In this document: one piece after another, positions 4,946 to 54,367 of the stretch
Layout: each line of letters starts with the position of its first letter
Position numbering within the stretch: the first letter of the stretch is position 1
Assembly: GCA_019637195.1 (NCBI GenBank)
Contig: JAHBWA010000027.1
Span: forward strand, 1 to 64,000
DNA: 64,000 nt
Direction: 5' to 3'
Source: Labilithrix sp.
Lineage (GTDB): Bacteria; Myxococcota_A; Polyangia; Polyangiales; Polyangiaceae
Position numbers and translations under genes: made by a program
Notes under the pieces: model-generated
Told to the model about the DNA's origin: nothing
The model's database searches: none
Seen by the model: the letters and a program-made list of their open reading frames with translations, nothing else

Positions 4946-5022
4946 GAGGGCCGATCGCGCGAGCGAGGGGTGGGCGCGGGCGCGAGGGGCCGATCGCGCG
5001 AGCGAGGGGTGGGCGCGGGCGC
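4946..5022. repeat. Two direct copies of a 38-39 bp repeat
   Basis: A unit of 38-39 bases occurs twice in tandem at 4946-4983 and 4984-5022, differing by one G in a G-run. It lies in the 170-base gap between the RCC1 gene and the next lipoprotein gene. It is very GC-rich and probably arose by replication slippage; no protein function is evident. Confidence 0.7.
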
Positions 5023-5089
5023 GAGGGGCGGCCCGATACGCCGAAAAAAGATCGCGACGGCGCGCCGGCCCGCGGCTCTTCGGAGGACC

Positions 5090-5836
5090 ATGAAGAGCTT
5101 CGAACGTTCTCGGGCCGGCCTCACCGTCACCCTCTCCCTCGTCGCCGCCCTCGTCGGCCTCGGCGCCTGCACGGCCGGCGGCGGCGCGGCAGACACCGTC
5201 CCCGGGGACGCCGGCGCGGCCGCGAAGAGCGACGCGGGCGCCGCCGTCGCCCAGGACTGCAGCGGCCTCCCGAGCTCGCAGGCCGTGAGCCAGCCTTGCT
5301 GCCTCGCGCTGGGGATCGACGCCTGCGGCGCCAACCTCTTCTGCGCGGCGTTCGACGGCCGCACGCAGCCGACCTGCTACCTCGAGCGATCGCGCCTCGC
5401 GCTCGAAGAGTGCACGGAGGATCGCCAGTGCGTGAGCGGCGCTTGCAACGACGACCTCGGACAGTGCAAGAGCATGCCGGGCGCCAGCTGCGACGCCAAG
5501 GTCGGCTGCGCGACCGTCGAGGGTACGCGCGCGGTCTGCGTCGAAGAGCGCTGCCAGACGACCGAGGGCGAAATCGGCGACGCGTGCGCGCGCGACGCCG
5601 ATTGCACGAACGGGACGTGCTCGGCCGACCACCGCTGCGTCGGCAAGGAAGGCGCGACGTGCGACACCTGGAGCAACGATCAGTGCGGAGAGGGCCTCTG
5701 TTGCCAGCGCGGCACGTGCGCCGACTGCCGGCCCGGTGAGGGCGAGAGCTGCGGGGGCTCCGTGGAGTGCCGCCCCGGCCTCCGGTGCTGCCGCCTCAGC
5801 GGGTCCGGCTCCTACTGCTACCCGTCATGCAACTAG
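5090..5836 (+). CDS. Cys-rich secreted lipoprotein
   Basis: A 248-residue protein with an N-terminal signal and a lipobox near residue 27 (GLGAC), followed by an Ala/Gly/Asp linker and about 20 cysteines in the mature part. The cysteines sit in short repeats such as CTEDRQCVSGAC and CARDADCTNGTC, the Dickkopf/EB-like Cys patterns often seen in myxobacterial surface proteins. A GGAGG ribosome-binding site lies just before the ATG. The 3' end overlaps the convergent MarR-GNAT gene by 41 bases. It is probably a disulphide-rich outer-surface protein; no enzyme motif is present. Confidence 0.8.
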   Translation: MKSFERSRAGLTVTLSLVAALVGLGACTAGGGAADTVPGDAGAAAKSDAGAAVAQDCSGLPSSQAVSQPCCLALGIDACGANLFCAAFDGRTQPTCYLERSRLALEECTEDRQCVSGACNDDLGQCKSMPGASCDAKVGCATVEGTRAVCVEERCQTTEGEIGDACARDADCTNGTCSADHRCVGKEGATCDTWSNDQCGEGLCCQRGTCADCRPGEGESCGGSVECRPGLRCCRLSGSGSYCYPSCN

Positions 5837-6914
5837 CTCGGCGCGCGGCGGTCGCTCGGGAGTGCTTCGACGCGCCGTGCAGCGGGTAGCTCATCGCGAC
5901 GTCGCAGCGCGCGTAGCTGGCCCCGTAGCGCTTCATGATCGCGGCGTCGTGCCGGAAGCCGAGCTTCTCGTAGAGCGCGATCGCCGCGACGCACTTCGAG
6001 TTCGTGAGCAGGTAGAGCGTCTCGACGTCCATCGTGCTCGCGCGCGCGAGCGCGGTCGTGAGGAGCAGCTCCCCCGCCCTCTTGCCCCGAGCGCGCTCCA
6101 AGACGCCCATCTTCGTCAGCTCGAAGACGCCCTCTTCGACCTTCATCAACGCGCAGGTCCCCACGACGCCGAGCTCGGCGGACTCGACGAGGAGGATGAC
6201 GCCGCCGCGGTCGAGGATCGTGCCCCGCGGGTCCTCGAGGATGGCGCGGTCCTTGTCCTCCAGCATGAACATCGACTCGATCCACTCGGCGTTGATCGCG
6301 AAGAAGTCCTTCGCGAGGTCGTCCGAGTATTCGCGGATGGCGAGAGCGTCCGCGCCGTCTCGCTGCGCGTCCGCGCCGTCTCGCCGCGCGTCCGCGCCGT
6401 CTCGCCGCGCGTCCGCGCCGTCTCGAAGCGCGCCCGCGGCGTCGAGCGCGCGCGCCTCGAGCGGACGCTCCGCGAGCTGCGCCTCGAGGCTGGCGATCTG
6501 CTCGAGCAGCGTCCCCTCGAGCGGCGCACAGAGCGTCGCGACGGCGGCGTCGATGGCCGGCCACGCCTTCGCCTTCGCCTTCGCGACGAGCGCGCGTCCC
6601 TGCCGCGTGAGCTTCAACGTCTTCTGCCTCTGGTCCGCGGCGTCGCTCTCCGCGGCGAGGGCGCCCCGGTCGACGAGCCCCGAGGCGGTGCGCGTCACCG
6701 CCGGCTGGCTCACCCCGAGAGACTCGACCGCGGCCGTGATCGTCATCGGCCCGAACCGATCGATCGCCGCCAGCAGCGCGAGCTCGGTCGGCTGCGCGTC
6801 GACGCCCATCGTCCGGTGCACCTTCGCGGCGTCCGCCTGCAGGCGCTCGGCGAGGCGCTTGAGCCTGCTGCCCAAAAAGAGGTGACCGAGCTCCGAGAGC
6901 AGATCCGCCGGCAT
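5796..6914 (-). CDS. MarR-type regulator fused to GNAT acetyltransferase
   Basis: The 372-residue protein has a MarR winged helix (about residues 1-150; GVSQPAVTRT is the recognition helix, DQRQKTLKLT the wing). A linker of four 7-residue units (xRDGADA) follows, then a GNAT acyltransferase domain (about 205-355; acetyl-CoA loop in ARGKRAGELLL, then LYEKLGF). Such MarR/GNAT fusions are a known class; the acetyl acceptor is unknown. I chose the ATG at 6912-6914 because GGAGG lies 7 bases upstream. A more upstream ATG would overlap the operator at 6937-6948. That operator sits 22-34 bases before the start, which predicts autoregulation. The 3' end overlaps the convergent lipoprotein gene. Confidence 0.88.
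   Translation of the reverse strand: MPADLLSELGHLFLGSRLKRLAERLQADAAKVHRTMGVDAQPTELALLAAIDRFGPMTITAAVESLGVSQPAVTRTASGLVDRGALAAESDAADQRQKTLKLTRQGRALVAKAKAKAWPAIDAAVATLCAPLEGTLLEQIASLEAQLAERPLEARALDAAGALRDGADARRDGADARRDGADAQRDGADALAIREYSDDLAKDFFAINAEWIESMFMLEDKDRAILEDPRGTILDRGGVILLVESAELGVVGTCALMKVEEGVFELTKMGVLERARGKRAGELLLTTALARASTMDVETLYLLTNSKCVAAIALYEKLGFRHDAAIMKRYGASYARCDVAMSYPLHGASKHSRATAARRASCMTGSSRSRTR
6346..6427. repeat. 21-bp tandem repeat encoding the inter-domain linker
   Basis: Four near-identical copies of a 21-base unit encode the heptapeptide linker RDGADAx between the MarR and GNAT domains. Copies differ by one or two bases. Copy number could vary and would change domain spacing without breaking the frame. 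Confidence 0.75.
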
Positions 6915-6936
6915 GAAACGACCTCCGGGCCAATAC

Positions 6937-6948
6937 ATAACACGTTAT
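6937..6948. promoter_or_regulatory. Palindromic MarR-type operator ATAACacGTTAT
   Basis: ATAAC and GTTAT form a perfect 5-bp dyad separated by 2 bases. This AT-rich palindrome is conspicuous in very GC-rich DNA and lies directly upstream of the MarR-GNAT start. MarR proteins commonly bind such short dyads over their own promoters. Binding by this protein is inferred. Confidence 0.6.
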
Positions 6949-7003
6949 GCTTGAGCCGCAAGGCGTCTCGCTCGACGCGGCCGGCGCGCGATCCCGGCTG
7001 CGA

Positions 7004-8677
7004 TCAAGGGCGCAGCTGGAAGACCGCGTACCCGCTCTCGGGGAGCTTCACCGTGACGGCGTCGCCGGCGGTCGCCAGCGAGCCCTGGCCGAGCACGACG
7101 CGGCCGCGGCCGGGGAGCGACGCGGTCGCGGTGCCCTCGCGCGGCTCGCGGGCGAGGTTCACCGCGACGAGGTAGCTCTCCGCCTCGTCCTCGCGCACGA
7201 AGGCGACGATCCCGCGATCGTCGAGGGGGAGGAGCCGGGAGCTCCCGCTCCCCCAGACGGCGTGGCCGCGGCGGAGCGCGAGCAGCGAACGGTAGAACGA
7301 CAGCATCGAGTCGGGATCGGCGTCCTCGGCCTCGACGCTGGTATCGCCCGGCGCCTCGCCGAACGGCAGCCAGGGTGTCCCGGTCGTGAAGCCGTGACCC
7401 GCGCCGTCGCGCGTCCAGGTCATCGGGGTCCGCGACGTGTCGCGGATGTCGATCGGCGTCGCCGCGCCCGGGCGCAGCGCGACCTCCTCGCCGTAGTAGA
7501 TGAACGGCGTGCCGCGCATGGTCATCTGGAGCAGCGCCGCGCCGCGGTAGCGCTCGGCGTCGTTGCCCGCGGTCTGCCAGGCGCGGAGGACGTCGTGCGA
7601 GCCGATGACGAGCGCGTCCTGCGCGCCCGCCGGGAACGCGCTCGCCGTGGCCATCGCCTCCTCGATGATCCGCCGATCCCCCGACGCGAAGGCGATGCCC
7701 CAGAAGTAGCCGTAGGCGAAGTCGAAGGCCATGTGGAACATGTCCTCGCCGCCGCCGAAGTACGGCGTCGCGTTCGTCAGCTCGACGGGCTCGGCGACCA
7801 TCGCGCGATCGGCGTAGCCGTCGACGATCTGCCGGATCGATTTGATGTACTCGATCGTCTCGGGGACCAGCGAGCACGACGTCGCCGTCTCGAACAGCAG
7901 GCCGACGACGTCGCAGCGGAAGCCGTCGACGCCCTTGTCGAGCCAGAAGCGCGTGGTGTCGAGCATCTCCTTCGCGACCTCCGGCTCGCGGTAGTTGAGG
8001 TCCGGCTGCCCGGGGTAGAAGCGGTGGAAGTAGTACTGCTCCCGCGCGGGCTCGAGCTCCCAGGCGCTGTCGCCGAAGGTCGAGCCGTTGGTGCCGCAGC
8101 CGATGTCCTCGCGGCCGGCGGTGTCCGACCAGACGTACCAGTTCGCCTTCGCGTTGGTCTTGTCCTTCCGCGACTCCTGGAACCACGGGTGCGCGTCCGA
8201 GGTGTGGTTCAACACGAGATCGATGAGGACGCGCATCCCGCGCGCCTTCGCCTCGGACATCAGGCGCTCGAAGTCGGCCATCGTCCCGTAGGCCGGCTCG
8301 ATCGCGCGGTAGTCGGCGACGTCGTAGCCGGAGTCCGCGAAGGGCGAGGGCATGATCGGCATGAGCCAAAGCGCGTCCACGCCGAGGTCCTTCAGGTAGT
8401 CGAGGCGTGACACGAGACCCGGGAGGTCACCGATGCCGTCGCCGTTCGAGTCCTGGAAGGACCGCACGTTGACCTCGTAGAAGACCGCGTGGCGATACCA
8501 GTCGGGACCGGTGAGCAGCGCAGCGGCCCTCGCTTGTTGCTCGGGGGTCGGACGCGAGGGCGGTCGGACGGAGCCCGCCGGCCCGGCCTCGTCGGAGCCT
8601 GCGCCCCCGCACGCGGGCACGCTCGCGAGGGCGGTCAGGAGAGCGAAGGCTGCGGACCGAGCGTAGGCGCGATGCAC
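7004..8677 (-). CDS. Secreted GH13 alpha-amylase family lipoprotein
   Basis: The 557-residue protein has a signal peptide with a lipobox (VPACGG, Cys near residue 23) and a GH13 barrel. GH13 conserved region I is DLVLNH, region II is GFRCDVVG (nucleophile Asp near residue 250), the acid/base Glu is in VAEPVEL near 293, and region IV is GSHDVLR near 358 (Ser where Asn is more usual). Residue order and the IYYGEEVALR segment resemble oligo-1,6-glucosidase/trehalose-synthase-type enzymes. It should hydrolyse or rearrange alpha-glucans on the cell surface. The start is GTG, 6 bases from a TACGCT hexamer. It lies upstream of the MarR-GNAT gene on the same strand and divergent from an esterase lipoprotein. 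Exact specificity is open. Confidence 0.88.
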   Translation of the reverse strand: MHRAYARSAAFALLTALASVPACGGAGSDEAGPAGSVRPPSRPTPEQQARAAALLTGPDWYRHAVFYEVNVRSFQDSNGDGIGDLPGLVSRLDYLKDLGVDALWLMPIMPSPFADSGYDVADYRAIEPAYGTMADFERLMSEAKARGMRVLIDLVLNHTSDAHPWFQESRKDKTNAKANWYVWSDTAGREDIGCGTNGSTFGDSAWELEPAREQYYFHRFYPGQPDLNYREPEVAKEMLDTTRFWLDKGVDGFRCDVVGLLFETATSCSLVPETIEYIKSIRQIVDGYADRAMVAEPVELTNATPYFGGGEDMFHMAFDFAYGYFWGIAFASGDRRIIEEAMATASAFPAGAQDALVIGSHDVLRAWQTAGNDAERYRGAALLQMTMRGTPFIYYGEEVALRPGAATPIDIRDTSRTPMTWTRDGAGHGFTTGTPWLPFGEAPGDTSVEAEDADPDSMLSFYRSLLALRRGHAVWGSGSSRLLPLDDRGIVAFVREDEAESYLVAVNLAREPREGTATASLPGRGRVVLGQGSLATAGDAVTVKLPESGYAVFQLRP

Positions 8678-48481: not shown

Positions 48482-50611
48482 GTGCGCTCCGCGAGGAACC
48501 TCGTCGCCGCGGCTTGCCTCGGCCTCGCGTGCGGCGGAGGCGATGCGAGCGACGGCGGCCCGTGCACCGGTGCCGAGTGCTCGCCGACCGACGCCGGCGA
48601 CGGCTGCCCCGAGGGCCTCGCGCTCGATCGCGAGGCGGGCGCGTGCGTCGACGTCGCGCCGGAGGACGACTGCCCGCCCGGATCGGCGCCGTTCCTCGGC
48701 AGCCGCACGTGCCAGCCTGTCGGCTGGTCATGCGCCGCGCCCTACGAGAAGGACCCGGCGGGGTGGGGCTGCCGTCCGACGCTCGCGAGCGCGTGCGGTC
48801 CCGGGACGCTCGAGACGTTCGGCGCCACGAGCTGCAAGCCCGTCGGCGACTGCGACGCGCCGTTCCCTCCCCCGGGCGCGGCGTTCATCGTCGACGCGAC
48901 GCTCGCCGCCGAGGACGCGACCCACAAGCGGTCGGTCTTCGACGCCGTCGCCGCCGCCCGCCCCGGCGACGTCGTCGCGATCATGCCGGGGGAGTACGTC
49001 GAGGACGTCGACGTCGCGAGCGCGAACGTCTCGATCGTCGGCAAGTGCGCGGCCCAGGTCACCCTCAAGAACCCTGGCGACCGCCGCGCGGGCATCCTCG
49101 TCGACGGTGTACGCGGCGTGCGCATCCGCGGGCTGACCCTCACCGGCCACATGTCCGGCGTCCTCGTCAAAGGCGGGGGCGAGGCCACGCTCGAGGACAG
49201 CCTCGTCACCAAGAACCGCTACATGGGTGTGTACGCGGCGGAGAGCGGCTCCCGCATCCGCGTCGCCCGCTCGCGGATCGACGACGTCGTGCCCGACGCC
49301 GATCGGTTCGGCTGGGGAGCGGCCGCGCAGCTGGGCGCCGCGGTCGAGCTCGAAGACGTCGTCGTGAGCGCGGCGACCGGCTACGGCATCGTCGCTGCGA
49401 ACGCGGGGAGCAGCGCCACGGTCCGCCGCACCGTGGTCCGCGGCACGCGCCTCGACGTCTCGGGGACCTTCGCCACCGGCCTCGGGCTCTCCCAGGGCTC
49501 GAGCTCCGACGTCGACGGCCTGCTCGTCGAGGAGGCTCGCGGCATCGGCGTCATGGCCTCCGCCGCCAAGCTCACCGGCGCGCACCTCGTCGTGCTCCAC
49601 ACGACGAAGAGCGCCGGGCCGGGGCGAGGCCTGCAGGTCTCGAAGGGCGGGAGCGCCGTCCTCGCCGAGAGCTACGTGGCGACGAGCGACGAGGCCAACG
49701 TCCTCGTGCTCGAGCCGAAGTCGAGCGCGACGATCACGAAGAGCGTCGTCGCCGGCGATCCCTCGGGCGATCGGACGCGCGCCGCCCACGGCGTGCGGAT
49801 CGCGCTGGGCGCGTCGCTCGACATCGCGGCGTCCGCGCTGGTCTCGAACGTCGAGGTGGGCCTCGCCGTGCAGGACCCCGGCACCCGCGCCACGGTCGAC
49901 GGCGTCCTCGTCCGGGACACACTCTCGCTCCGCGAAGGCACGAGCGACCAGCGCGGGGTCGGCGTCGGCGTCGCCTACGGGGCCGTCCTCGACATGAAGC
50001 GGAGCGTCGTCGAGAGGAACGAGTACGCCGGTGTCCTCGTCTCGCGCACGGACGACGACGCGCTCTCCACGGCGACGATCACGAGCACCCTCGTCCGGCG
50101 CACGCGCGCGCTCGGCGAGACCGGCATCGGCGGACGCGGGGTCGAGGTGAGCCGCGGGGCCGCCGCGACGCTCGACGGCTGCGCGATCACGGAGAACCGC
50201 GAGGTCTCGCTGCTCGTCGGGCTCGACGGCGCTTCGCTCGCGGTGCGACGCTCGATCGTGCGCGACACGGAGCAGAACGCGGAGCAGACGTTCGGCCACG
50301 GCATCCTCGGCTCGGCCGGCGCGTCGCTCGTCGTCGACGGCTCATGGCTCATCGGCCACCCGGGTGTCGGCCTCACCGCGGCGGGCGCGGCCGCGACCGT
50401 CTCGGGCTCGCTCGTCGCGCGCTGCGCCGTCGGCGTGCACACGCAGGACGGCTCGGAGCTGCAGGTCGCGCCGACGGTCCCGGACGCGCCCCGCCCTCCC
50501 GACGTCGTGATCTCGGACGACACGCGCTTCGTCGACAACGCCACGCGCGTCGGATCGGGTCAGATCCCCATCCCCGAGCTCTTCGCCCCCGCCGCGCGCG
50601 CGAAGCCGTGA
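48482..50611 (+). CDS. Right-handed beta-helix lipoprotein
   Basis: The 709-residue protein has a lipoprotein signal (GLACGGG, Cys near 17) and a Cys-rich head (about 25-120). A long parallel beta-helix region (about 130-690) follows, made of about 20-25-residue coils with the G-V-x-V-x-G-G/A pattern (GILVDGVRGVRIRG, GVLVKGGGEATLED and so on). Proteins of this shape degrade or bind polysaccharides, or act as surface adhesins; no polygalacturonase catalytic Asp cluster is obvious. The start is GTG 48482. The stop lies in a perfect 12-bp inverted repeat shared with the convergent cytochrome lipoprotein gene. Confidence 0.83.
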   Translation: MRSARNLVAAACLGLACGGGDASDGGPCTGAECSPTDAGDGCPEGLALDREAGACVDVAPEDDCPPGSAPFLGSRTCQPVGWSCAAPYEKDPAGWGCRPTLASACGPGTLETFGATSCKPVGDCDAPFPPPGAAFIVDATLAAEDATHKRSVFDAVAAARPGDVVAIMPGEYVEDVDVASANVSIVGKCAAQVTLKNPGDRRAGILVDGVRGVRIRGLTLTGHMSGVLVKGGGEATLEDSLVTKNRYMGVYAAESGSRIRVARSRIDDVVPDADRFGWGAAAQLGAAVELEDVVVSAATGYGIVAANAGSSATVRRTVVRGTRLDVSGTFATGLGLSQGSSSDVDGLLVEEARGIGVMASAAKLTGAHLVVLHTTKSAGPGRGLQVSKGGSAVLAESYVATSDEANVLVLEPKSSATITKSVVAGDPSGDRTRAAHGVRIALGASLDIAASALVSNVEVGLAVQDPGTRATVDGVLVRDTLSLREGTSDQRGVGVGVAYGAVLDMKRSVVERNEYAGVLVSRTDDDALSTATITSTLVRRTRALGETGIGGRGVEVSRGAAATLDGCAITENREVSLLVGLDGASLAVRRSIVRDTEQNAEQTFGHGILGSAGASLVVDGSWLIGHPGVGLTAAGAAATVSGSLVARCAVGVHTQDGSELQVAPTVPDAPRPPDVVISDDTRFVDNATRVGSGQIPIPELFAPAARAKP

Positions 50612-50642
50612 GCGCGCGCGCGTAGCCGGACGCGCTCACGGC
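50605..50642. terminator. 12-bp perfect inverted repeat spanning both convergent stops
   Basis: GCCGTGAGCGCG (50605-50616) pairs exactly with CGCGCTCACGGC (50631-50642) around a 14-base loop. The left arm contains the beta-helix gene stop and the right arm contains the stop of the minus-strand cytochrome gene at symmetric positions. It is the strongest bidirectional terminator candidate in the window, although no T-run follows on either strand. Confidence 0.6.
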
Positions 50643-51205
50643 ACGTAGATCTTGTTCTGCCTGCCGGGCACGTGGCAGTTCGCCGAGTCGCAGCTCGCGG
50701 CCTGGCCCTCGCCGAGCGAGGTCGACATGCTCTCGGTGCCGGCCGCGCTCCGGACGTGCGTCTTCGAGCCCGCCTTCACCGGCGCGCCGATCAGCCAGAA
50801 GAAGCCGTCGGCGTCGCTCTTCACCGGCCCGAGCTGCTCGGCACCGTTGACGACGATGACGTCGACGTCCGCGGCGGGCGAGCCCCCCCGGACGACGCGG
50901 CCGCCGAACGAGAAGGCCTTGTCCTTGGCGAGGCCGGCGCTGTTGTGGCACGTCAAGCAGTCGATCGTGTCGGAGGGTGCCGTCGGGCCGCCGGTGCCTT
51001 CGTGGGCGACGACCATCCTCTGATCGGGCCGGTTCGCCGTCGGACTGTAGTCGGTCCCGAACACGCCACCCCCGGCGCCTCCCGTCGCCGACTCGCGCGG
51101 CAGCGGCTTGCCGAGGATGACGCCGGCAGCGCCGAACTGCGGCTCGTCGGGCGCGCACGCCCCGAGGGCTGCAGCCAGCAGCAGCGTCACGGGAAGCCCT
51201 CGCAT
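50636..51205 (-). CDS. Diheme c-type lipoprotein with inserted beta domain
   Basis: The 189-residue protein has a lipoprotein signal (ALGAC, Cys17) and two haem-type motifs: CLTCH (83-87) and CDSANCH (172-178, a CX4CH form). Between them lies a beta-rich segment (FGGRVVRGG, VDVIVVN). It shares this architecture with the protein at 53226-53822, including an identical spacing from the first motif to the G-x-V strand. It should be a periplasmic or surface electron carrier. ATG 51205 gives a normal signal; a GTG at 51286 is possible but adds an Arg-rich tail. It is divergent from the DUF3570-like barrel gene. Confidence 0.8.
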   Translation of the reverse strand: MRGLPVTLLLAAALGACAPDEPQFGAAGVILGKPLPRESATGGAGGGVFGTDYSPTANRPDQRMVVAHEGTGGPTAPSDTIDCLTCHNSAGLAKDKAFSFGGRVVRGGSPAADVDVIVVNGAEQLGPVKSDADGFFWLIGAPVKAGSKTHVRSAAGTESMSTSLGEGQAASCDSANCHVPGRQNKIYVP

Positions 51206-51327
51206 CCATGGAAAGAGAGCACGACGCGTGCCCCGGCGCGAGGGCTGACCTTCGGAAGCACGGGGCCGGCCAGGCGCGATCTTCACCGGCGCCCGATTTG
51301 AGCGTCATGAGTTGCCCGAACCCCTTG

Positions 51328-51333
51328 TAGTGT
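51328..51333 (+). promoter_or_regulatory. Putative -10 TAGTGT before the barrel gene
   Basis: TAGTGT ends 8 bases before the ATG at 51342 with no ribosome-binding site. It would drive the barrel and cytochrome operon as a leaderless transcript. Confidence 0.4.
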
Positions 51334-51341
51334 AGGGTCGC

Positions 51342-53222
51342 ATGACTGGCGCGCGGATGTCGGCCGGAGCCCGCGCTCGGGACGTGAGGGCGCTCGCGGC
51401 CTGGGTCATCGCGCTCGTCGCGTCGTTCGTGCACGCCGACGCTTACGCCGCGCCGCGCGTCGCGCAGCGGCGACCGGCCGCGCCGGCTCCGGCCGCCGAG
51501 CGACCGTCGCGTGGCTGGTCGAATCCGAAGGCCCTCGAGCTCGCGAAGGAGGGCATCGACGCCAAGAAGCGCGGCGACCTCGCGCTGTTCATCCAGAAGG
51601 ACCAGGCCTCGCTCGTCCTCGAGGACCACCCGTACGTCCGCCTGCACGTCTCGAGCTGCCTCGCGGGCCAGGGTCGCTTCAAGGACGCGCTCATCGCGGC
51701 GCGCGACGCGCTCGCCGCCGGCATCCGCAACGAGGACGAGGACCTGAAGCGCGCGGCCCTCGCGCGCGTGCAGGAGCTCTTGCCGAAGCTCGCGAAGCTG
51801 AAGCTCGCGATCCCGAACAAGACGCAAGGCCTTAAGATCACCCTCACGCCCGCCGTCGGAGCCGGGACGTCGATCCGCCCGAGCCAGCTCAAGGGCCCGA
51901 TCTCCGTCGATCCCGGCGAGTACACGATCGAGGCCGTCCGCGAAGAAAAGGGAGACCGCTACCTCTTCCGGGAGAGGATCACGATCGACGAGGGCGAGGA
52001 GAAGGAGGTCGAGATCCTCCCGAAGAGGGACCACCTGGCCGACGAGGTCGAGGAGTGCCTCCGCAACGCGAAGACGTACAAGGAGCGCCTCAAGTGCATC
52101 GAGGAGTCGACGACGCACCCGAACGTCCACGTCGGGATCGACGTGAGCGCGTACACGGACTCGACGGCTGTGCACGTGCTCACGCCGGCGATCAACGCGT
52201 CGGTCGTCTCGCCCACCGGCGGATGGAACGTCGGCGGCTCGTACCTCCTCGACATGGTGACCGCCGCGTCGCCGGACCTCGTGTCGACCGCGTCGCGCTC
52301 GTTCCACGAGGAGCGCCACGCGGCGTCGCTCAACGGCGGCTACAAATTCTCGTTCGCCGACGTCGGGCTGAACGGGAACGTCTCGAGCGAGCCCGACTAC
52401 CTCTCGCGCACGCTCGGCGGCTCGATCAGCACCGAGCTGAACGACAAGCTCATCACGCCGCGCCTCGGCTACAACTACTCGTGGGACACGATCGGCTACC
52501 GGAACACGCCGTTCAGCCAGTTCAGCCGCGCGCTGACGACGCACGCGATCGAGGCCGGCGTCACGTTCGTCATGTCGCCGACGACGCTCCTCGTCACCGG
52601 CGTCTCGATGGGCTTCGAGCGCGGAGAGAACTCGAAGCTCTACCGCTTCATCCCGATGTTCCCCGCCGACATCGCCTCGCGCATCCCCGCGGGGGCGACG
52701 GCCTCGCTCGTCAACGAGGAGCGCCTCAGCTTCCGCCCGCGCGAGTTCGTCCCGCAGCAGCGCGACCGGTTCGCGATCGGCGCGCGCGTCAACCATCGCT
52801 TCAGCAGCGGCACGCTGCGCGTCGAGGAGCGCCTCTACACGGACAACTGGGGCATCAAGGCGTCGACGACCGACGGCCGCTACCTCCACGACCTCGGCGA
52901 GAGCCTGCGCGTCTGGCCGCACCTCCGCCTGCACGCGCAGTCGGGCGCGAGCTTCTACCAGCTCGCGTACACCGGGGTCGTCGACGGGCAAGGCACGCCG
53001 GTCGAGATCCCGCGCTACCGCACGACCGACCGCGAGGCCTCGCCGATGGTCGCGGTGACCGCCGGCGGCGGCGCGCGCATCGCCCTCACCAACGAGAAGG
53101 CGCCGACCCAGTACGCGATCGTCGTGAGCGGCGACGTGATGTACAATCGGTACTTCGAGTCCCTCTTCATCCTCAGCCGAACCGCCGTGTGGGGCACCCT
53201 CGGCTTCGACGCAGAGTTCTGA
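51342..53222 (+). CDS. DUF3570-like outer-membrane beta-barrel protein
   Basis: The 626-residue protein has an atypically Arg-rich signal (cleavage near AYAAP). An N-terminal periplasmic part has TPR-like and small beta sections (about 55-245; ALELAKEGIDAKKRGD, VDPGEYTIEA). A long barrel-type domain (about 255-626) has alternating strands and ends in LGFDAEF, with terminal Phe. Blocks such as NYSWDTIGYRN, FSRALTTHAIEAGV and RVEERLYTDNWG match DUF3570 proteins. The three c-type lipoproteins around it suggest that the barrel houses or exports an electron carrier. It is followed by the diheme gene after 3 bases. Confidence 0.8.
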   Translation: MTGARMSAGARARDVRALAAWVIALVASFVHADAYAAPRVAQRRPAAPAPAAERPSRGWSNPKALELAKEGIDAKKRGDLALFIQKDQASLVLEDHPYVRLHVSSCLAGQGRFKDALIAARDALAAGIRNEDEDLKRAALARVQELLPKLAKLKLAIPNKTQGLKITLTPAVGAGTSIRPSQLKGPISVDPGEYTIEAVREEKGDRYLFRERITIDEGEEKEVEILPKRDHLADEVEECLRNAKTYKERLKCIEESTTHPNVHVGIDVSAYTDSTAVHVLTPAINASVVSPTGGWNVGGSYLLDMVTAASPDLVSTASRSFHEERHAASLNGGYKFSFADVGLNGNVSSEPDYLSRTLGGSISTELNDKLITPRLGYNYSWDTIGYRNTPFSQFSRALTTHAIEAGVTFVMSPTTLLVTGVSMGFERGENSKLYRFIPMFPADIASRIPAGATASLVNEERLSFRPREFVPQQRDRFAIGARVNHRFSSGTLRVEERLYTDNWGIKASTTDGRYLHDLGESLRVWPHLRLHAQSGASFYQLAYTGVVDGQGTPVEIPRYRTTDREASPMVAVTAGGGARIALTNEKAPTQYAIVVSGDVMYNRYFESLFILSRTAVWGTLGFDAEF

Positions 53223-53225
53223 GTC

Positions 53226-53822
53226 ATGAGGAGTCCCCGTGAGCACGGCAGCACGAGACGACACCGCGCAGCGGCGCTCGTCTTCGCCGGCGCGGCGCTG
53301 TCGCTCGTCGCCGGATCGATGCTGGGAGGGTGCACCGATCCCGTGCGCGACGCCGAGATCGAGGCGCTCGGGCCGGAGGAGCCGGGCGTGACGCCGAACC
53401 CGGAGCACCGCCCAGGGCAGCCCTGCCTCCACTGCCATTCGCAGGGCGGGCCGGCGTCGAACAAGCCGTTCGCGATCGCCGGGACGGTCTACGAGACCGA
53501 CAGGCCGGGCTCGAACGGCGCCGACGGGATCTTCGTCCAGTTCGTCGACTCGGCCGGCGGCGGGCCACGCGAGATCCCGCAGACGGGCCCGTCCGGGAAC
53601 TTTTACGTGCCGCTGCAGGATTGGACCGACCTCAAGTACCCGGTCCGCGTCGGCCTCTACGAGGACCTGAACGGACCGCCGACGGTGATCATGAAGAGCC
53701 TCATCAACCGCGAGGGGTCCTGCAATTTCTGTCATCGCCCCAACCTCGCGGATCCGACGGACCAGGAGATCGACGACAGCCGCAGCTCCGCGGGGCAGAT
53801 TTTCTTGAGGTCGGGATCATGA
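53226..53822 (+). CDS. Diheme c-type lipoprotein, paralogue of the divergent gene
   Basis: The 198-residue protein has a lipoprotein signal (LGGC, Cys36) and haem motifs CLHCH (67-71) and CNFCH (166-170), separated by a beta-sandwich-like stretch (FAIAGTVYE, IFVQFVDS, NFYVPLQDW, RVGLYEDL). The first 23 residues from the haem motif (C-L-x-C-H-x3-G-x-A-x2-K-x-F-x3-G-x-V) align without gaps with those of the protein at 50636-51205. The domain between the motifs resembles a carboxypeptidase-regulatory-like fold. It starts 3 bases after the barrel stop and overlaps the next gene (ATGA), so it belongs to the barrel operon. Confidence 0.85.
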   Translation: MRSPREHGSTRRHRAAALVFAGAALSLVAGSMLGGCTDPVRDAEIEALGPEEPGVTPNPEHRPGQPCLHCHSQGGPASNKPFAIAGTVYETDRPGSNGADGIFVQFVDSAGGGPREIPQTGPSGNFYVPLQDWTDLKYPVRVGLYEDLNGPPTVIMKSLINREGSCNFCHRPNLADPTDQEIDDSRSSAGQIFLRSGS

Positions 53823-54367
53823 CATCGCATACGCGGCGTCGTTCGCTCGTCATCGCGCTCGCCGCGGCCTCCGTCGCCGCGGCCTCGGCGTCGTGCAGCC
53901 TCCGCACGGAGTCGGGGGAGTTCGGCGATCTCCCCGACCGGGCGTCGTTCGTCGACAACAACGTGTCGCTCTTCATGGAGGTCCGCTGCGGCGGCCTCGA
54001 CTGCCACGGGCAGGTCGGACGGCCGCTGCGGATCTACGGCCAGACAGGGCTGCGGCTCAAAGCCCGTGAGGACGGGCTGCGCGACAACTCGCCCACGACC
54101 GACGAGGAGCGCACCGAGAACTATCGGTCGGTCGTCGGCCTCGAACCCGAAGCGCTGGCGGAGTGCTTCGAGTCGAAGGGCGAGAAGATCGCCACCTTCC
54201 AGCTCCTCAAGAAGCCGCTCGGCGCCGAGAACGACGGCATCCGCCACAAGGGTGGGCCGGTCCTGCGGCCCTCACAATCGGATCCCGGGTGGCAGTGCCT
54301 GTTCGGCTGGGTGAGCGACAACGTCGACGCCGCAGAGTGCGAGCGCGCCTCGAAGATCACGCCCTGA
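53819..54367 (+). CDS. Mono-heme-type lipoprotein with CX4CH motif
   Basis: The 182-residue product has a lipoprotein signal (ASASCS, Cys26) and a CGGLDCHG motif (57-64). This is a CX4CH haem-attachment variant with the trailing Gly typical of small extracytoplasmic cytochromes. Two further Cys lie at about residues 120 and 163. It is translationally coupled to the preceding diheme gene (ATGA). The non-standard spacing would need a tolerant cytochrome c maturation system; haem attachment is inferred. Confidence 0.72.
   Translation: MTSHTRRRSLVIALAAASVAAASASCSLRTESGEFGDLPDRASFVDNNVSLFMEVRCGGLDCHGQVGRPLRIYGQTGLRLKAREDGLRDNSPTTDEERTENYRSVVGLEPEALAECFESKGEKIATFQLLKKPLGAENDGIRHKGGPVLRPSQSDPGWQCLFGWVSDNVDAAECERASKITP

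Follow-up and report, generated by a model that had tools for sequence, protein, structure and literature searches.

A DUF3570 outer-membrane barrel encoded with c-type haem lipoproteins in Labilithrix sp.: a locus that looks like a haem-based version of a flavin electron-transfer system

What does an outer-membrane barrel do with three small haem lipoproteins encoded around it? The question is raised by a locus in the 64,000-nucleotide stretch of Labilithrix sp. DNA analysed here (the window; contig JAHBWA010000027.1), in which the initial annotation had described a barrel, a divergent dihaem lipoprotein and two coupled haem lipoproteins; all four open reading frames lie where it had placed them. 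The divergent gene, cytA (50636..51205, minus strand; lipobox LGAC), encodes a paralogue of the cytB product and carries the haem motifs CLTCH (50945-50959, minus strand) and CDSANCH (50672-50692, minus strand). The barrel gene (51342..53222, plus strand) encodes a protein with a signal peptide that models, at moderate confidence, with about 16 strands and belongs to the DUF3570 family (PF12094 match over residues 318-575, 89 bits against a cut-off of 25). Coupled to it is cytB (53226..53822, plus strand; lipobox LGGC), a dihaem lipoprotein gene with the motifs CLHCH (53424-53438, plus strand) and CNFCH (53721-53735, plus strand). It is followed by cytC (53819..54367, plus strand), which overlaps the end of cytB by 4 bases and encodes a monohaem lipoprotein with the motif CGGLDCH (53987-54007, plus strand). 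Two of the three haem proteins indeed have a CX4CH site, namely CDSANCH in CytA and CGGLDCH in CytC. Just before cytA, and outside the conserved operon, the window also encodes a beta-helix lipoprotein with right-handed repeats (48482-50611, plus strand; PF13229, 65 bits).

The barrel protein is built from an N-terminal part (residues ~60-235) and a beta-barrel domain. The former begins with a TPR-like helical stretch (residues 62-151; 51525..51794, plus strand), recognised from helices in the model and from structural matches to TPR arrays and expected to be periplasmic, and continues with a PEGA-like stretch, to about residue 232, that was recognised by eye only. The barrel domain (residues 261-626; 52122..53219, plus strand) is defined by model strands and porin-like matches and ends in a C-terminal Phe.

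The kinship of CytA and CytB that had been noticed from their sequences is real: the two give a gap-free alignment that starts at the first haem motif and takes in the K-x-F-x3-G-x-V strand, have the same layout of haem, beta domain and haem, and are recovered as one family by profile search. Within this family C67xxCH71, M156 and C166xxCH170 (numbering of CytB in the window) are invariant in 26 of 26 members and His61 is kept in 23, which makes Met156 and His61 candidate distal haem ligands; in the CytA rows the second haem site is of the CX4CH type. The relatives of CytC keep CX4CH in 31 of 32 cases and a downstream His in all 32. With a conserved CXnCH motif and a conserved candidate distal ligand, these proteins would classify by sequence as c-type cytochromes. 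The model of CytB is poor (pLDDT 54) and has a central beta domain with a haem motif on either side; the beta domain resembles transthyretin, at Foldseek E values of 0.02-0.1 that are not significant, and CytA has a weak match (E 0.005) to a carboxypeptidase regulatory-like domain. Sequence searches of the PDB with the barrel, the cytB profile and CytC returned no significant relative, and a search of NCBIfam gave no useful match.

The idea that these genes form a functional set was most exposed to the chance that their neighbourhood is not conserved. Barrel, cytB and cytC are, however, a conserved operon across Polyangiales, in the order of the window: they are syntenic in L005-L008 (from records titled Labilithrix in two cases, Polyangiaceae and Myxococcales in one each) and in tens of further genomes of the same family. 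The assignment to Polyangiales is based on these titles and on the kinship of the genomes compared. All locus counts given here rest on profile searches of all open reading frames, the simple gene caller having missed genes that include cytC. In sister loci the order on one strand is DUF4266, barrel, cytB and cytC, and the spacing from barrel to cytB is in many cases -3 to 4 bases. In 14 genomes, cytC homologues almost always adjoin identified barrels, the exceptions being one weak match and G055:C2:22106, where cytB is found with a fused cytC-cytB gene and no barrel is present within the 12 kb read. Such fusions, in which one three-haem protein joins the CytC and CytB motifs, occur in L074 (8709-9842), L075 (5437-6801), L076 (5815-6885) and L169 (3501-4637, with no barrel nearby), and by profile likely also in L073; they support a joint function of the two proteins. 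A cytA gene beside a barrel was found only near the window (L005, L006, and a weaker match in G073:C14), while a haem lipoprotein of one sort or another, CytA among them, is encoded upstream in 14 of 22 long-form loci.

DUF3570 proteins have been described as substrates of the flavinyl transferase ApbE that carry two [S/T]GA[S/T] motifs and cluster with DUF4266, a thioredoxin-like protein and sometimes DsbD (PMC8238504); our literature search found no further work that names DUF3570 or DUF4266. The window barrel has neither motif in canonical form. Alignments of 58 and then 101 barrels place its two sites side by side: DMVTAAS (residues 304-310; 52251..52271, plus strand), in which the Gly is replaced by Ala, and DLVSTAS (residues 312-318; 52275..52295, plus strand), in which it is replaced by Thr. 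Both sites keep the acceptor Ser, and the tandem D-x-x-[S/T]-x-A-[S/T] pattern is retained. In the same bacterial family, canonical barrels have DxVSGAS as their first site and mostly DV[IV][ST][ST]AS as their second, and a Chlorobiaceae barrel reads SGAS at both. The acceptor Ser/Thr is kept at both sites throughout the clade that lacks the Gly, and S318 is invariant in the Chlorobi and Bacteroidota rows as well. We also weighed HAQSGAS (residues 530-536, following strand 13) as a possible flavin site and rejected it: it has no Asp at -3, and its Gly is not conserved in the clade. Elsewhere, L129-L131 encode long DUF3570 proteins beside apbE with three matches to D-x-x-[S/T]-x-A-[S/T], two of which are SGAT.

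Loss of the Gly and presence of haem partners go together. A cytB gene lies beside 38 of 61 Gly-less barrels versus none of 39 with [S/T]GA[S/T], and a CX4CH protein of the CytC type is encoded at most 2.5 kb from 45 of the former versus none of the latter; the Fisher p-values for these comparisons overstate the association, because a single event is counted many times. In a barrel tree of 100 rows, calculated with the flavin-site columns left out, the cytB loci all group in a single 40-row clade (SH-aLRT 96), itself nested in a Gly-less clade of 51 rows (SH-aLRT 93). Two of these rows were scored by hand as bearing cytB: L042, whose copy is truncated by the end of the contig, and L062, with the gene at a distance of 2.7 kb. 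The most parsimonious history on the tree needs one change for cytB and three changes for the motif, and the partnership of cytB and barrel has one origin, a single event that is not replicated. Seven Gly-less barrels (L148, L153, L155, L156, L158, L160 and L165) have no recognised haem partner; they show a Gly-less first site, no recognisable second one and no recognised apbE nearby. Haem proteins can accompany the canonical flavin type of DUF3570 too: a Chlorobiaceae contig (L009, 20-4930) has an SGAS barrel preceded by three-haem, monohaem, cupredoxin-like and thioredoxin-like proteins, the cupredoxin-like one carrying a carboxypeptidase regulatory-like domain.

No apbE is found in the cluster of the window barrel: the single ApbE match of the genome (G000:C71; L126, 6857-8998) lies away from every DUF3570 gene and converges on a gene for a PDZ-thioredoxin protein. 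DUF4266 is absent beside the barrel in the window and in L005-L008, is present at three paralogous loci of the same genome (C45, C354 and C360), and lies upstream in most loci, Gly-less and Gly-bearing alike. A second ApbE substrate reported in the same study, DUF2271 (PMC8238504), was not found at the window locus. In each of the five genomes, of 20 checked, where it scores over the cut-off, including that of the window (G000:C360), its gene lies within a few kb of a short-form barrel. DUF2271 lipoproteins with an intact DAVTGAT are encoded in L043 (8837-9646, the G000:C360 locus), L063 (5764-6429), L064 (5508-6170) and L065 (8582-9247), and each of these loci has a short-form DUF3570 barrel, cytB and cytC as well, so that mixed flavin-haem loci do exist in sequence. 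In L062 the protein at the DUF2271 position, called by that position with the DUF2271 match of G032 falling inside it, reads DAVTRAT.

From these observations we consider it rather probable that the locus encodes a DUF3570-type redox module of the outer membrane, its haem lipoproteins working alongside flavin or in its place. The module would derive from an ApbE-associated DUF3570 system. CytA, CytB and CytC would be loaded with haem, tethered to the outer membrane and docked on both the barrel and the TPR part that precedes it, and would shuttle electrons between the barrel and a partner in the periplasm; both sites sit in the loop that joins strands 3 and 4, which would be the barrel's own redox or docking point; and in the Gly-less cytB clade haem would supplement or replace the covalent flavin. 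Such a module may transfer electrons across the membrane. Our confidence divides about evenly between the two sub-cases, supplementation and replacement.

In the first, the Gly-less sites are still flavinylated by an ApbE encoded elsewhere and the relay mixes flavin and haem. Taken singly, this is a real possibility but less likely than not. It agrees with the acceptor residues kept at both sites across the clade, and with a Gly-to-Ala change in another ApbE target that lowered flavinylation to a degree of ~50% (PMC12052999). It agrees also with the apbE genes that adjoin Gly-less barrels in L157, L159 and L167; in L159 a thioredoxin-ApbE fusion (4957-7716) lies directly beside a barrel with DLISAAS and DLVTAAS, a hint that ApbE may accept the Gly-less motif. 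ApbE, moreover, is present in 20 of 20 genomes checked and FMN_bind in only 3, and G047 has two ApbE matches and no FMN_bind or DUF2271 match; in G047, G014 and G032 no recognised substrate adjoins the orphan ApbE loci, except possibly in L174. Against this, the first site retains its Gly in the canonical barrels of these genomes, so that ApbE has another substrate there, the second site has Thr in place of Gly, and the conserved residues could be structural.

In the second sub-case the barrel has lost its flavin and the haem lipoproteins have taken over the role. That every member of the cytB clade lacks Gly at both sites speaks for this, as do haem partners that, among the Gly-bearing and Gly-less barrels compared, stand beside the Gly-less ones only; the conserved acceptor residues, the apbE genes next to Gly-less barrels elsewhere and the separate flavin-type DUF2271 in some sister loci speak against it, and taken singly we think it somewhat unlikely. 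A complete loss of flavin is not claimed, because of these retained residues and neighbouring apbE genes. We give not quite an even chance to the proposition that an outer-membrane electron-transfer system has exchanged its covalent flavin for lipoprotein c-haems, or mixed the two, on the same barrel, with flavin, haem and DUF2271-mixed versions coexisting in some genomes.

The barrel itself bears on the remaining explanations. Its model, of moderate confidence (pLDDT 60, pTM 0.46, from an alignment of 8 rows, the structure alignments holding only window proteins and translations from related loci), has about 16 strands in residues 261-625, following TPR helices in residues 62-151, and places the flavin-site loop (residues ~307-322) between strands 3 and 4. 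Barrels of this sort usually have both ends in the periplasm; if so here, the loop would lie on the outer side or be folded into the lumen. The structural matches of the barrel are porin-like, which fits a channel that admits a metal or small molecule to be reduced or oxidised by the haem lipoproteins on the periplasmic side, with no exit of electrons. This is nevertheless unlikely: we recognised no transporter in the operon of the window, and the many paralogues per genome would need as many substrates.

The initial annotation had compared the set with porin-cytochrome conduits, in which a cytochrome inside the barrel carries electrons across the membrane. The comparison holds for the composition, a conserved barrel operon with dedicated c-type haem lipoproteins, and finds no support in a likeness to known conduits. 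MtrB has 26 strands and MtrA ten haems (PMC7198977); here the barrel is of the DUF3570 family, and the three proteins have 2, 2 and 1 haem sites, five in all, none being a membrane-spanning multihaem cytochrome like MtrA. By geometry, 16 strands would give a backbone radius of ~14-16 A versus 23-26 A for 26 strands, with little room for a folded dihaem domain. MtrB is absent among the structural matches listed, an absence that by itself excludes nothing. The analogy to MtrCAB thus fails on haem number and, going by the model, probably on barrel size, and on strand number and haem count we do not adopt it as the main reading; we regard a wire of this type as very improbable. Least credible of all is a polymer exporter with the haem genes as mere neighbours: PelB/PelBC and BcsC, which also combine TPR and barrel, are among the best structural matches, but short forms without the TPR part keep cytB and cytC, no synthase genes were noticed next to the operon, and DUF3570 is an ApbE substrate family.

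Compared with the systems already described, the redox module that we favour shares with PelB and BcsC a TPR part preceding a barrel of similar size, and differs from them in its haem lipoprotein partners, its TPR-less short forms and the lack of any sequence likeness found. With MtrCAB (PMC7198977) it has in common an outer-membrane barrel and c-type haem proteins in one operon, while the two differ in barrel family, in haem number and, going by the model, in strand number. Closest is the ApbE-flavinylated system of DUF3570, DUF4266 and thioredoxin, with DsbD in some cases, of Meheust et al. 2021 (PMC8238504): the barrel family is the same, the tandem sites are kept, and DUF4266 stands upstream in most sister loci as in C45, C354 and C360; the window locus, in contrast, has no Gly at either site, no apbE and no DUF4266, and has haem lipoproteins instead. 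DUF2271, which the window locus lacks, is placed within sister loci with short-form barrels, its DAVTGAT intact in four copies. The set therefore looks like an undescribed haem-based version of the flavin electron-transfer system, with an electron flow that we infer. Flavinylation and cytochromes have been proposed to be interchangeable in electron transfer of the cell envelope, with examples among respiratory enzymes (PMC8238504); if our reading is true, the present locus would be an instance that involves an outer-membrane barrel, its flavin-type, haem-type and mixed loci, paralogues in one genome, would allow a direct comparison of the exchange, and DUF3570 and DUF4266 would gain a set of haem partners.
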